Assembly (NCBI GenBank): GCA_002796995.1
Contig: PEKW01000007.1
Span: 62,001-126,000 of the forward strand
From: Rhizobium sp.
GTDB taxonomy: Bacteria > Pseudomonadota > Alphaproteobacteria > Rhizobiales > Rhizobiaceae
Direction of reading: 5' to 3'
Length of the DNA stretch: 64,000 nt
The notes beneath the pieces were generated by a model, which had not been told where the DNA came from, ran no database searches, and saw nothing but the letters and a program-made list of their open reading frames with translations. The position numbers were made by a program, and so were the translations under genes. Within the stretch, counting starts at the first letter, position 1; each line of letters starts with the position of its first letter. Positions 38,853-60,831 of this stretch are shown here, piece by piece.

Positions 38853-38999
38853 GTCGGCATGGATAGCGCGGGGCGTTCGAGGCGTCCATACAAACTTGCC
38901 GCAGGAGCCGTGCCGCAAACACGAAAACGTTACGAATTTGTAATCCGGCCTTCCCTTGAAAAACCATATTTCACCGCACATTTGATAGTCACCGGCGCC

Positions 39000-39140
39000 T
39001 GATCACGCCGCAGTCTGAAAGAGGCTCGTCCCCCGCCGCTTCAGACTGGACAAAGGCCTTATCCCCCTCTCCGGGCCTTTGTCCCCCATTTCGAAGCCGC
39101 CATGGCGCCCGCCTCCAAGCCATGGCGGCTTCTTGATGTC
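39000..39140 (+). ncRNA. Trans-acting sRNA candidate beside polA, three stem-loops (alpha-r7/Smr7C-like)
   Basis: The 388-bp gap between polA and marR carries three consecutive perfect hairpins. SL1 is CAGTCTGAA/TTCAGACTG (39011-39048). SL2 is GGACAAAGGCC/GGCCTTTGTCC (39048-39084). SL3 is GAAGCCGCCATGGC/GCCATGGCGGCTTC (39093-39132), followed by TTGATGT. The loops are C-rich (for example TTATCCCCCTCTCCG), suited to pairing with Shine-Dalgarno sequences. A CTTGAA -35-like element is at 38955-38960. From memory, Sinorhizobium Smr7C (alpha-r7, about 150 nt) lies next to polA; position and three-hairpin form fit. Ends are estimates. Confidence 0.68.
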
Positions 39141-41189: not shown

Positions 41190-41568
41190 GGGAGCCAGGA
41201 CTGTCGCGCATGCCGCCTTCCGGTCGGCATGCGCCAAAAACGCAAAAAGGCCGGGAGTTACCCGACCTTTCCTCTGCCGCTTCGACGCCCGTGCCAGTAC
41301 ATCCGTGGTCAGGGGCGGAAACGTGCAATGCGCATTTCCGGACTAGGGTCTGCCTTTCGGCTTGTCCCGCGTCCCATGATCAGGAGAATGAGGCCAAGTG
41401 ATTAACCAGTGGTTAACGGCGGCAACTTCCCTGATCCAAAACGCTGCAACACATCTTGGCGTGCAAGTTGCATTGGTTGATCCTTAAGTGGGAAGCCCGG
41501 ACGCCGATATCAAGGACCTCTTCAAACGAGACTTGCCTGATGGCGAAAGCTGCGGATAGAAAAGAACG
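41190..41568. other. 379-bp intergenic region with hairpin and CtrA-type box
   Basis: No credible gene. A hairpin AAAGGCCGGG/CCCGACCTTT (41246-41270, one mismatch) with A-runs on its left could end transcripts on either strand, mainly those of the minus strand. A CtrA-type box follows at 41402-41417. The last 150 bp before the ybaK-like gene contain only weak repeats (TGCAAC/GTTGCA around 41444-41471). Confidence 0.6.
41402..41417. promoter_or_regulatory. CtrA-type box upstream of the ybaK-like gene
   Basis: TTAA-CCAGTGG-TTAAC matches the CtrA consensus TTAA-N7-TTAAC exactly and is also an inverted repeat (TTAACCA/TGGTTAA). It lies 152 bp before the next start codon. Confidence 0.6.
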
Positions 41569-53797: not shown

Positions 53798-54334
53798 ATG
53801 CGTCACATCGTGCTTCGTGCCTCTCTCGTTTCGTGGATCGCCCTCGGGCTTTGCGCAATGGGCGGGCCGGCAGCCGAGGCCCAAGGCGTGTCCAAGGGTT
53901 CGAGCGGCCTGCCGCTGCCGCGCTTCGTCAGCCTGAAGGCCAAGCGGGTCAATCTCAGGATCGGTCCGAGCACCGACTATGCCGTCTCCTGGCTCTACCT
54001 GAAATCCGGGCTGCCGGTTGAGATCATCCAGGAATACGAGAACTGGCGGCGCATCCGTGACGCTGACGGCACGGAGGGGTGGGTAAGCCAGACCCTGCTG
54101 TCGGGCGAGCGCACCGCGGTCGCCGCGCCGTGGATGCGCGGCAACGACGTCTATGTGAACCTCAGGTCCGATTCGCAGTCGACGGCGAGTGTCGTCGCCA
54201 AGCTCGAGCCCGGCGTGGTGATGCGGCTCGAGGAGTGCACCGGCAACTGGTGCCTGGCGGAAGCGGGCGGCGTCAACGGATGGGTGGCGCAGAGCGAGAT
54301 CTGGGGCGCCTATCCGGGCGAGGCCTTCAAATAA
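53798..54334 (+). CDS. Secreted bacterial SH3-domain protein
   Basis: A 178-residue exported protein. The signal peptide (MRHIVLRASLVSWIALGLCA, cleavage near AEA-QG at about 29) is followed by two SH3-like repeats. The first is FVSLKAKRVNLRIGPSTDYAVSWLYLKSGLPVEII with WRRIRDADGTEGWVSQTLL. The second is DVYVNLRSDSQSTASVVAKLEPGVVMRLEE with WCLAEAGGVNGWVAQSEIWG. Such domains usually bind peptidoglycan. Its last 8 bp overlap the end of the convergent kinase gene. Confidence 0.88.
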   Translation: MRHIVLRASLVSWIALGLCAMGGPAAEAQGVSKGSSGLPLPRFVSLKAKRVNLRIGPSTDYAVSWLYLKSGLPVEIIQEYENWRRIRDADGTEGWVSQTLLSGERTAVAAPWMRGNDVYVNLRSDSQSTASVVAKLEPGVVMRLEECTGNWCLAEAGGVNGWVAQSEIWGAYPGEAFK

Positions 54335-55319
54335 GCCCGACCTCTCCGGCCGCCTTGGACAGCGAGCCGAGCGGTCGCGGACCGATCTGCTGGATGACGA
54401 TGCCGGCTGCGAGGCAGCCGATCCGGCCGCAATCGTAGAGCGAGCGGCCCTGGGTATAGCCATAGAGGAAGCCCGCAGCGAACAGGTCGCCGGCGCCCGT
54501 GGTGTCGACCAGTTGGCCGATCACGGTCGCCTCGACGCGGATGCGTTCGCCGCCCTTGAGGATCACGGCGCCCTCCTCGCTCATCGTCACGGCGGCAAGC
54601 TTGCAGTCGCCCGCCATCCTGGTGAGCGCGAGATCGAAATCCTCGGTCTCGTAGAGCGAGAGCGCTTCCTGCTTGTTGGAGAAGACGATGTCGACCGTGC
54701 CGGAGCGCATCAGAGCGAGGAATTCGTCGCGGTAGCGGCCGACGCAGAAGCTGTCGGACAGGGTCATCGACATTTCCCGGCCGTTCTCGTGGGCGATGCG
54801 GGCGCAGTCGAGGATCGCCTGCTTGGCCCGCGGCGGATCCCAGAGATAGCCTTCGAAATAGGTGACCTTCGACTGCGCCACGACCTCCGGCTCGACGTCT
54901 TCCGGGCCGAATTCGACGCAGGCGCCGAGATAGGTGTTCATCGAACGCTCGCCGTCCTCGGTGACGAAGATCATGCTTCGCGCGGTCGGCGGAAACGTGC
55001 CTTCCGGCTTCGTCTCGTAGTGAACGCCCTGGGCGCGGATGTCGTGGGCGAAGATCTTGCCGAGCTGGTCCTCGGCCACCTTGCCGAAATAGGCGGCCTT
55101 GCCGCCGAGGCTGGCGATGCCGGCGGCCGTATTGCCGGCGCTGCCGCCGGAGGCTTCTACGGCGGGGCCCATCAGGGCGTAGAGCTTTTCGGCCCGTTCG
55201 GCATCGATCAGGTTCATCGCGCCCTTGGTAATGCCGTTGTCGACGAGGAAGGCATCCTCGCAACGCGAGATGATGTCGACGATGGCGTTACCGACGGTGA
55301 GAACATCGAACCTGCTCAT
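54327..55319 (-). CDS. PfkB-family adenosine kinase
   Basis: A 330-residue cytoplasmic sugar/nucleoside kinase. The N-terminal DVLTVGNAIVDIISRCED, the GGSAGNTAAGIASLGGKAAYFGKV ribose-binding loop and the anion-hole signature DTTGAGDLFAAGFLYG are clear. Length and the GNAxVDI start fit the rhizobial adenosine kinase subgroup; other nucleosides are possible. The start is at 55319; the frame extension to 55640 covers the RNA element at 55450-55616 and is spurious. Confidence 0.9.
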   Translation of the reverse strand: MSRFDVLTVGNAIVDIISRCEDAFLVDNGITKGAMNLIDAERAEKLYALMGPAVEASGGSAGNTAAGIASLGGKAAYFGKVAEDQLGKIFAHDIRAQGVHYETKPEGTFPPTARSMIFVTEDGERSMNTYLGACVEFGPEDVEPEVVAQSKVTYFEGYLWDPPRAKQAILDCARIAHENGREMSMTLSDSFCVGRYRDEFLALMRSGTVDIVFSNKQEALSLYETEDFDLALTRMAGDCKLAAVTMSEEGAVILKGGERIRVEATVIGQLVDTTGAGDLFAAGFLYGYTQGRSLYDCGRIGCLAAGIVIQQIGPRPLGSLSKAAGEVGLI

Positions 55320-55449
55320 AAATCCCGGATCTCCAATAGTTTGGGGTTTTCCGGTCATAGCCGTTTTTCTCCGGCAGAAAAGGAAAAAGCGCGCGCCTAG
55401 GCGGAATTGCGTAGACGTCATTCGTTTGTCACGCAGGCCGATTAGACAG

Positions 55450-55616
55450 TCCTCAAGTGGTGATGGCATGGAGCGCTTCCGGCGCCTCGCCATCCGCGCA
55501 GGGGACATGTTTGGTCCCCGATCAAGAACTCGCATCGACCACGGATGTACTGGCGATGCGGCTTCGGGCCCGACCTCCGGTCTGGCAGCGAAAGCGGGGG
55601 GCAACCCCGCTTTTTT
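55450..55616 (+). ncRNA. Highly structured RNA ending in an intrinsic terminator (sRNA or leader)
   Basis: In the 411-bp gap between the kinase and AEC genes there are consecutive hairpins: GATGGC/GCCATC (55462-55494, with an inner GAGCGC/GCGC stem), GGGGAC/GTCCCC (55501-55519), CGCATCG-A-CCA/TGG-CGATGCG (55531-55560), and short GGC/GCC and GACC/GGTC stems (55560-55581). They are followed by a terminator at 55591-55616. No frame on either strand looks coding. The AEC gene starts 115 bp later, so this is either a free sRNA or a terminating 5' leader. It matches no RNA I can name; 6S RNA was considered and not supported. The 5' end is a guess. Confidence 0.65.
55591..55616 (+). terminator. Intrinsic terminator of the structured RNA
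   Basis: A perfect 9-bp stem AAAGCGGGG/CCCCGCTTT with a GGCAA loop, running into six consecutive T (55611-55616). No protein gene ends just upstream on this strand, so it closes an RNA gene or a leader. Confidence 0.88.
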
Positions 55617-55730
55617 CGTTTTCGGCGGGCGTACTGACAAAGATCAATCCGCACTGGCCGATTCACACGCATCGCGATAAGCCTTGGGGGCTCACCACGC
55701 CTTCTCCTCCTCCCGAGAGCCATTCCGCCG

Positions 55731-56675
55731 ATGTATGCGATTGCCCAGGACGTCTTTCCGATCTTCATCCTCATCCTGTTCGGCTGGGGGCTGGTCAAGA
55801 CCCGGATCCTGAACGCTGATATCGGCGACGGACTGGGCGAATTCGTCTTCAAGGTCGCGGTGCCGGTCCTCCTCTTCCGCACAATTTCGCAGGCGGACTT
55901 CCACGGCGCCTCCCCGTTCCGGCTCTGGATCGCCTATTTCACCGGTGTCGCGATCACCTGGACGGTCGGGCATCTCCTGGCAACCCGCCTCTTTGGACGC
56001 GATACCCGGGTCGGGGTGCTGGCGGGGGTGTCCTCAGCCTTTGCCAACAACATCTTCATCGGCCTGCCGCTCGTCGAGCGCACCGTCGGCAGCGACGGCA
56101 TCGTCGCCGTGTCCATCCTGCTGGCCGTGCATCTGCCGCTGATGATGGTCATCGGCACGGTGCTGATGGAGCGCGCCGAGCACAAGGTCAATGGCGGCGA
56201 GTCACGGGGGCTGGTGAACGTCCTGCGGCAGGTGGGCACCAATCTGATGCGTAATCCGCTGGTCATCGGCCTTGCCGCGGGGCTTGTCCTGCATGTCAGC
56301 GGGCTTGCGCTTCCCCGGGTGCTGGCAAGCGTGGTGGATCAGATCACCGCTATGGCGGCACCCGCCGCGCTGATCTCGCTCGGCATGGCGCTCAACAAAT
56401 ACGGCATCCACGGGAATGTCGGCATCGCGACCGTGATCTCGGCCCTCAAGCTGCTGCTGATGCCGGCCTGCGTCTGGCTCGCCTGCCGCGTTCTGGGACT
56501 GAGCGCGGACTGGACGGCGGCGCTGGTGCTCACCTCGTCCGTGCCCACCGGCATCAATGCCTGGCTGATCGCCAACCGCTTCGGCGTCGGCCACGGGCTC
56601 GCCGCCTCGGCGATCTCGCTCAGCACCGCGGTCGGCGTGCTCAGCGTCACGCTCTGGGCATGGATCCTGCAGTAA
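55731..56675 (+). CDS. AEC (auxin efflux carrier) family transporter
   Basis: A 314-residue inner-membrane carrier with about ten helices in two repeats. VFPIFILILFGWGLVKTRIL is the first helix region. The helix breaks SSAFANNIFIGLPLVERTVG and LTSSVPTGINAWLIANRFGVG are family signatures. Substrates in the family include malonate, malate and other organic acids, and cannot be chosen here. The possible leader RNA at 55450-55616 would place it under RNA control. A bidirectional terminator separates it from cycM. Confidence 0.9.
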   Translation: MYAIAQDVFPIFILILFGWGLVKTRILNADIGDGLGEFVFKVAVPVLLFRTISQADFHGASPFRLWIAYFTGVAITWTVGHLLATRLFGRDTRVGVLAGVSSAFANNIFIGLPLVERTVGSDGIVAVSILLAVHLPLMMVIGTVLMERAEHKVNGGESRGLVNVLRQVGTNLMRNPLVIGLAAGLVLHVSGLALPRVLASVVDQITAMAAPAALISLGMALNKYGIHGNVGIATVISALKLLLMPACVWLACRVLGLSADWTAALVLTSSVPTGINAWLIANRFGVGHGLAASAISLSTAVGVLSVTLWAWILQ

Positions 56676-60729: not shown

Positions 60730-60831
60730 CTCGGGAGGTTGGTGGTGGACGAGCCACTCGCCAACCGGGTCAGGTCCGGAAGGAAGCAGCCCTAACGAGC
60801 GCGGCACGGGTCATCGTGCCAGCCTCCCACC
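60730..60831 (+). ncRNA. ffs: Signal recognition particle RNA (4.5S)
   Basis: The domain IV hallmark CAGGTCCGGAAGGAAGCAGC lies at 60771-60790, with the symmetric and asymmetric loops that bind Ffh. The ends pair: GGGAGG at 60733-60738 with CCTCCC at 60823-60828. Size about 100 nt, the short bacterial type. It is directly upstream of dnaX, the usual rhizobial position. Ends are approximate. Confidence 0.94.

Follow-up and report, generated by a model that had tools for sequence, protein, structure and literature searches.

The segment at 55450-55616 on the forward strand of the window (the whole 64,000-nucleotide stretch of Rhizobium sp. DNA analysed here) almost certainly belongs to the alpha-r35 / RFM_SmelB053 hairpin family, as a divergent lineage. 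We propose that it encodes an independently transcribed sRNA which may act as a decoy for a factor that reads the hairpins of cold-shock 3′-UTRs and, judging from sequence comparisons, we give this statement as a whole a probability of about 0.4. The module in question, a ~30-nt hairpin whose apex hardly varies, occurs repeatedly at rhizobial cold-shock genes, in small RNAs, and on virus-classed contigs.

The RNA lies in a 411-nt gap between the start of an adenosine kinase gene at 55319 (− strand) and the start of an AEC transporter gene at 55731 (+ strand), with the following parts:

54327..55319, − strand: gene which we take to be adenosine kinase / PfkB-type; an ORF divergent from the RNA, used as synteny anchor.
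55415..55432, + strand: Pho-box-like direct repeat ACGTCAT-N4-TTGTCAC with an 11-bp period, from the repeat counts across adenosine-kinase loci.
55442..55448, + strand: predicted −10 region TTAGACA, suggested by the constant spacing from repeat to TA in orthologs.
55462..55494, + strand: stem-loop 1, GATGGC ... GCCATC, from the minimum-free-energy fold.
55501..55519, + strand: stem-loop 2, GGGGAC-AUGUUUG-GUCCCC, with ortholog stems changed on both sides.
55531..55560, + strand: stem-loop 3, the family hairpin, CGCATCG-A-CCA / TGG-CGATGCG, from model R1, covariation and the ar35 apex; bulged A at 55538, CCA/UGG at 55539-55541 / 55551-55553, loop CGGAUGUAC at 55542-55550.
55568..55586, + strand: stem-loop 4, between the family hairpin and the terminator, from the fold.
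55591..55616, + strand: intrinsic terminator, stem AAAGCGGGG / CCCCGCTTT at 55591-55613 and six T at 55611-55616.
55654..55682, + strand: promoter-like pair CTGGCC-N17-ATAAGC, possibly the AEC gene's own promoter, with similar pairs in orthologs.
55731..56675, + strand: AEC-type membrane transporter, 314 aa, Pfam Mem_trans PF03547, 157.2 bits (cut-off 25.7).

Minimum-energy and centroid folds were computed for 55450-55620, and the former reaches -80.9 kcal/mol, compared with -68.2 ± 4.3 for 200 dinucleotide shuffles (z -2.9; 0/200 as good). A preliminary description of this DNA had given the 411-nt gap, the stem at 55531-55560, the hairpin at 55501-55519 and the terminator at 55591-55616, and all are at those places in the window sequence. 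Its multi-hairpin fold ending in a terminator also stands, with four stem-loops ahead of the terminator in the minimum-energy fold (five stem-loops with the terminator counted) rather than the five that it had given; its 9-bp terminator with six T is present, the 9-bp stem taking in three of those T. Transcription of the RNA is expected to start near 55455. Scanning 55200-55900 for terminators found one, with 0.7 expected by chance, so the terminator by itself proves little and it is conservation that counts. Two coding ORFs over the RNA, 55225-55680 (+) and 55457-55819 (+), were ruled out because orthologs differ there by indels of other than three bases.

The family assignment follows from the apex of the central hairpin, GACCACGGATGTACTGGC, which is the alpha-r35 / RFM_SmelB053 signature (loop GGAUGUA). 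At gathering level Rfam reports nothing at 55450-55616, and a permissive Rfam scan aligns 55531-55560 with positions 62-91 of RF02346 ar35 at 19.8 bits (gathering cut-off 45); the apex alone aligns and the score is below the cut-off, so the window RNA is not an ar35 member in Rfam's sense. An 18-nt core is identical between the 55531-55560 region (+) and a second copy in the window:

41240..41336, − strand: second family member, Rfam RF02346 ar35, 54.1 bits (gathering score 45).

The preliminary description had been able to match the RNA to no known family. With the central hairpin identified, the RNA loses its claim to novelty, which leaves the question of function where it was. Two further Rfam RNAs are present in the window, an ar7 sRNA at 38990-39134 (+; 107.9 bits) and a small SRP RNA at 60734-60830 (+; 61.7 bits).

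In the available text of a 2011 Rhizobiales sRNA survey (PMC3927594), RFM_SmelB053 (SmelB050, SmelB053/SmrB35, SmelC691) has the loop GGAUGUA, a variable first domain, a Rho-independent terminator and a triple stem-loop; its members are mainly in Rhizobiaceae, with several copies per genome on several replicons, and 29/33 of the related 3′-UTRs are on cold-shock genes. The authors tie its copy number to mobile elements, and propose Hfq-dependent stability control and interceptor (decoy) transcripts. The prototype, SmrB35, is a mapped transcript of Sinorhizobium (S. meliloti) to which a length of 139 nt was assigned; luteolin stimulates it moderately, and nodules gave no detectable transcript (PMC2780559). 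In S. meliloti, trans-encoded sRNAs include free-standing members of the family (PMC3927594, PMC2780559).

To follow the lineage we used the adenosine kinase gene as anchor, with 30 best loci from 40 genus genomes (own included) and 29 further loci from 60 other family genomes. The element was found there with model R1, which scores 48.2 bits at 55530-55561 (stem-loop 3) and whose seed is alignment A1, 27 hairpins with tidy stems picked for ≥6 of 7 outer pairs (L213, the 28th listed, was dropped as an ORF covers it). At E 0.1 the element is divergent from adenosine kinase in 25/30 genus loci and 3/29 other family loci, and strongly changed loops would escape this finder. The loops at these loci read GGATGTAC, with GGATGGAC in L386 and L389 and GGATGAAC in L392, L401, L407 and L411; L388 and L391 have G as the bulged base, and L408 is able to pair without a bulge. 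A terminator follows the element in 25/28 ortholog loci, none being found in L388, L391 and L395. Most orthologs have a counterpart of stem-loop 2 on another stem (L403 lacks a stem, and those of L408 and L391 have 2-3 bp), and its loops, for which an AU[GC] start was required, begin with AUGA in 18/28 and AUCA in 3/28, and with AUGU in the window copy. The stem-loop 1 region aligns poorly in distant orthologs, and by eye many of them have CCCGG...CCGGG-like stems at the position of stem-loop 4. When the whole RNA was folded as a consensus, nothing beyond the family hairpin and a portion of the terminator came out.

Promoter-like signals accompany the element. The strict repeat GTCA[TC]-N6-GTCA[TC] occurs in 19/28 element-bearing and 0/30 parsed element-free adenosine-kinase loci, and a relaxed repeat with a −10 TA, a form fitted after viewing the sequences, in 28/28 and 0/30, respectively (27/28 over a shorter stretch). 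The own genome has the strict pattern once, and the reversed control none. The Pho box given in the available text of PMC3131613 sets two CTGTCAT 7-mers on either side of an A/T-rich spacer of 4 nt; the window sequence shows the repeat and the period, but the spacer there is G+C-rich. The Pho-box reading is weaker because of the G+C-rich spacers and because the own genome holds no other strict site, and given the spacer, singling out PhoB from the OmpR-type regulators is a guess. Between terminator and AEC gene, a promoter-like pair is found in 17/28 orthologs, against a mean of 1.8 and a maximum of 6 in 300 single-base shuffles, for a pattern picked after viewing the alignment and in 28 related rows.

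The preliminary description had posed the choice between a free-standing sRNA and a 5′ leader of the AEC gene, and this was the right choice to pose. The promoter-like signals before the RNA (28/28) and before AEC (17/28) favour two units, as does the usual position of the family hairpin before a terminator, whereas the linkage to AEC opposes this: an AEC-like ORF is adjacent and co-directional in 28/28 element-bearing loci, and such an ORF is present in 1/31 element-free ones, which is more linkage than a free sRNA needs and the strongest evidence for a leader. Such a leader would start at the Pho-box-like promoter, its hairpin array would sense a protein, RNA or ligand, and its terminator would set read-through into AEC. 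The repeat in every element-bearing locus and in none of the 30 parsed element-free loci, and the terminator at 25/28, agree with it, and the same hairpin in small-ORF 5′ leaders elsewhere means that leader positions exist. We consider a leader a serious rival but less likely than the sRNA, given the promoter-like pair downstream of the terminator in 17/28 loci and the terminator that usually follows the element elsewhere (212/241 distinct copies), and the linkage may be mere common descent of one block. Since repeat, element and AEC are gained or lost together, the repeat is not assignable to the RNA alone.

The sequence constraints on the hairpin bear on what might read it. For covariation we took the exact-core copies minus three coding or chance loci and two near locus ends, and thinned 245 distinct 42-mers to 115 with no pairing filter. 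The base 5′ of CCA is A, the bulge, in 115/115 thinned copies; with the three coding or chance loci kept it is A in 115/117, and pairing exceeds the arm-swap control at every pair to the eighth. Across the eight outer pairs 76.5% of cells are standard pairs, compared with 53.9% when shuffled (maximum 58.2, 500 shuffles), and 261 cells are altered on both sides, compared with 120 (maximum 148); at least 6 of 7 outer pairs are present in 55/115 copies. The values from alignment A1, 91.6% paired cells and a covariation score of 0.689, are inflated by the way its hairpins were picked. The preliminary description had held the structure to be beyond chance and named compensatory changes across relatives as a check; such changes are present among the 115 copies, and the outer-stem pairing and the recurrence at adenosine-kinase loci of the genus bear out its view.

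The apex varies within narrow limits. On virus-classed contigs, the closing A-U pair is replaced by G-C, a double change, in 10 stretches, by A-C in none, and by G-U in one; six of the ten G-C stretches have ≥5 of 7 outer pairs, two are identical in sequence, and two have a terminator in the scan. The sixth base of GGATGTAC is altered in 15 stretches, 9 of them with ≥6 of 7 outer pairs, and the third base (A) in a single stretch with 1 of 7. These base-change counts at closing pair and loop yield an apex rule of a bulged A, CCA/UGG or CCG/CGG, and the loop CGGAUGNAC. For the family, the loop reads GGAUGNAC, under an almost fixed bulged A. The bulge and inner pairs are fixed along with the loop, which points to recognition of shape plus sequence. 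It is here that antisense riboregulation, in which a trans-acting sRNA would pair with mRNAs by the loop GGAUGNAC or by that of stem-loop 2, becomes improbable: the S. meliloti free-standing members are trans-encoded sRNAs and few parts are as well conserved as the loop, yet the bulged A and two inner C-G pairs, needless for a pairing seed, are kept too, and the same hairpin is the 3′-UTR of coding genes.

The exact 15-nt core is present in 218/297 GTDB-family genomes, at 0 to 9 copies each, with about nine matches in the reversed-letter control on the same 297 genomes. At class level it occurs in 13/385 genomes, one of them the own genome, and the matches in G707 and G545 are coding or chance by eye. 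Named genome contigs hold at least 118 stretches with the exact core, 113 of the 118 listed loci being titled Hyphomicrobiales, and virus-classed contigs at least 120, where the reversed pattern gave 0; this control rules out a chance origin of the core. One contig titled Arenimonas (L185) matches 8 kb of the window at 87.5% identity and is probably a mislabelled bin. Five copies (L036, L051, L093, L125, L127) have the core about 86-108 nt 5′ of a small ORF, mostly MTTRTTQ-like, in a leader without a terminator; L037 is similar with another ORF, and Pfam gave no match for the small-ORF proteins of L051 and L037.

Of the 241 distinct copies, 212 have a terminator after them (csp, 108/115; other cellular, 63/74; other virus-classed, 41/52), against 57/669 control windows, at similar distances from the hairpin (medians 19-24 nt). 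None was found after 29/241, the scan being strict for some (L178, L182). These figures and the varied upstream genes on virus-classed contigs would suit a passive 3′-end module, hairpin plus terminator, shielding transcripts from 3′ exonucleases with no specific partner, which is nonetheless very improbable, as a passive stem would not hold bulge and loop fixed while the outer pairs change, and the adenosine-kinase-side copies retain their own promoter-like block.

The decoy reading draws on the cold-shock genes. A csp ORF ends ≤250 nt upstream in 154 of the 313 exact matches listed (38/71 in the own, family and class set; 67/121 on genome contigs; 49/121 on virus-classed contigs), counts that are not independent as the own and some other copies are present more than once, and from which L007 was left out. 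Six exact copies of the 14-nt core ACGGATGTACTGGC occur in the own genome, on contigs C6, C34 and C35, four of them directly 3′ of CspA-type stop codons; the seventh match listed carries a single mismatch and falls, by eye, within a coding gene. The Rfam model recognises 1/6 of these exact copies. Nine CSD matches were found in the own genome, two of them within a single ORF; the element accompanies the four of MTTGTVKWFNSTKGFGFIQPD type, and model R1 finds none at the other CSD loci (L310, L312, L315, L316).

As an exact-core search cannot show variation of the core, we also searched 101 family genomes with the CspA protein, giving 29 new loci (best matches only), of which 28 were parsed. The exact core is present in 20 of these, the loop GGATGTA in 3 more, GGATGGAC in L349, and no element in 4. 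Two csp loci (L366, L370) have G-C in place of the closing A-U pair, and a third (L357) has A-C there and an altered first loop base. Tandem hairpin cores, two each, 69 and 86 nt apart, stand 3′ of a cold-shock gene in L061 and L133. Of the 29 best csp loci from 190 genomes beyond the family, 3 carry the element.

From this pattern we suggest that a trans-acting factor, most probably a protein, would recognise the apex with its bulged A, two fixed C-G pairs and loop, and that this factor would act on cold-shock mRNAs via the hairpin copies in their 3′-UTRs. Free-standing copies such as 55450-55616 would compete for the same factor, and the window copy might be switched by a regulator of OmpR/PhoB type, plausibly PhoB under phosphate shortage. 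The rarity of the csp element outside the family, the A-C closing pair in L357, and the copies in 5′ leaders count against this reading.

Besides the csp copies, virus-classed contigs carry two free-standing groups. Group A lies 3′ of the last gene in varied operons, and group B has a CTTGTTT..CTATAT block, which we take to be promoter-like. By eye, fifteen group B loci (L208, L211, L219, L221, L232, L234, L236, L246, L250, L251, L258, L265, L284, L301, L304) look like complete sRNA genes, with the promoter-like block, a conserved upstream part, the family hairpin and a terminator. Genes adjoining the group A hairpin, often convergent, are defence-like in L198, L205, L207, L229, L233, L241, L248, L276, L289, L302, L306 and L307. 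Six neighbour proteins were tested, with matches to PDC-S19 in L229 (E 9e-53), of the L241 kinase to mads_6 (1e-30) and PD-T4-6 (1e-25), and to an OLD-like protein in L289 (4e-20), weak ones to AbiP in L302 (4e-5) and mad8 in L233 (0.002), and no defence match for L205; the remaining loci are listed by likeness to these six. The group A setting resembles a defence hotspot of prophages with the hairpin at its edge. The virus-classed contig L235 (436 kb) has a copy whose stem is long and perfect, directly 3′ of an apparent tRNA 3′ end (by eye).

L267 resembles phage 16-3 in a capsid gene. A blastn search of the INPHARED isolated phages with two free-standing virus-type queries gave a single match of 21 nt for one, within the polymerase gene of a Lachnospiraceae phage, and none for the other; with no real counterpart there, carriage by phages rests on the IMG/VR classification. 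Plasmid records gave one weak 34-nt match. Four virus-classed csp copies (L191, L200, L212, L227) have the same flanks as the host csp locus L023, so host flank is likely in such contigs.

Two known regulators were considered as readers of the loop. The CsrA profile has 0 matches in the own genome (G000) and matches in 1 of 101 family genomes, with 3/14 control genomes positive; CsrA is ruled out as the reader here because its gene is absent from the own genome. The sole match among these 101, G070 (82.8 bits), also has three exact hairpin cores. Rhizobial genomes are without recognisable CsrA-like proteins according to the available text of a review (PMC7143759). We hold Hfq to be an unlikely reader since SmrB35 gave no Hfq co-precipitation signal, which its authors take to mean that binding is absent or very weak (PMC2848018, available text). 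The accessible portions of the literature on the rhizobial sRNA family, Hfq, CsrA and prophage decoys held no binding partner and no phage copy of RFM_SmelB053, and we did not meet there the adenosine-kinase-side lineage, its promoter-like block or the virus-classed copies.

We speculate, with considerable doubt, that the bulged-A GGAUGNAC hairpin is the site of a putative alphaproteobacterial RNA-binding protein, a functional CsrA counterpart where CsrA is absent. The cold-shock 3′-UTRs would hold its sites, free-standing copies would be regulated decoys, and rhizobial phages would have acquired csp genes, 3′-UTR copies and decoy genes, thereby tapping the same control. A dedicated protein, if real, would mean a layer of post-transcriptional control in a family most of whose genomes lack CsrA; if there is none, the hairpins are still a precise RNA module of which the Rfam model catches one copy in six in the own genome. 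The recognition rule, with its bulged A, two alternative inner stems and set loop, makes the partner directly testable.

CsrA targets share the consensus ANGGA, and CsrB-type RNAs are CsrA decoys. The family hairpin resembles CsrA/RsmA target hairpins in that its loop holds A-C-GGA-UGU, near ANGGA, and the decoy logic of the free-standing copies is alike. The SmelA075 sRNAs, with CCUCCUCCC loops, are likewise multi-copy rhizobial hairpins with a fixed loop on diverged stems (PMC3927594); their loop differs from that of the window RNA. The available text of that survey gives neither the bulged-A and GGAUGNAC rule nor virus-classed copies, and its consensus-structure figure may show the bulge. 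As in RFM_SmelB053, the window RNA has GGAUGUA, at 55543-55549, and a Rho-independent terminator after it, with stem-loop 4 between. It differs from RFM_SmelB053, as described in the same text, in having four stem-loops rather than two before the terminator, and in its Pho-box-like promoter and AEC neighbour.
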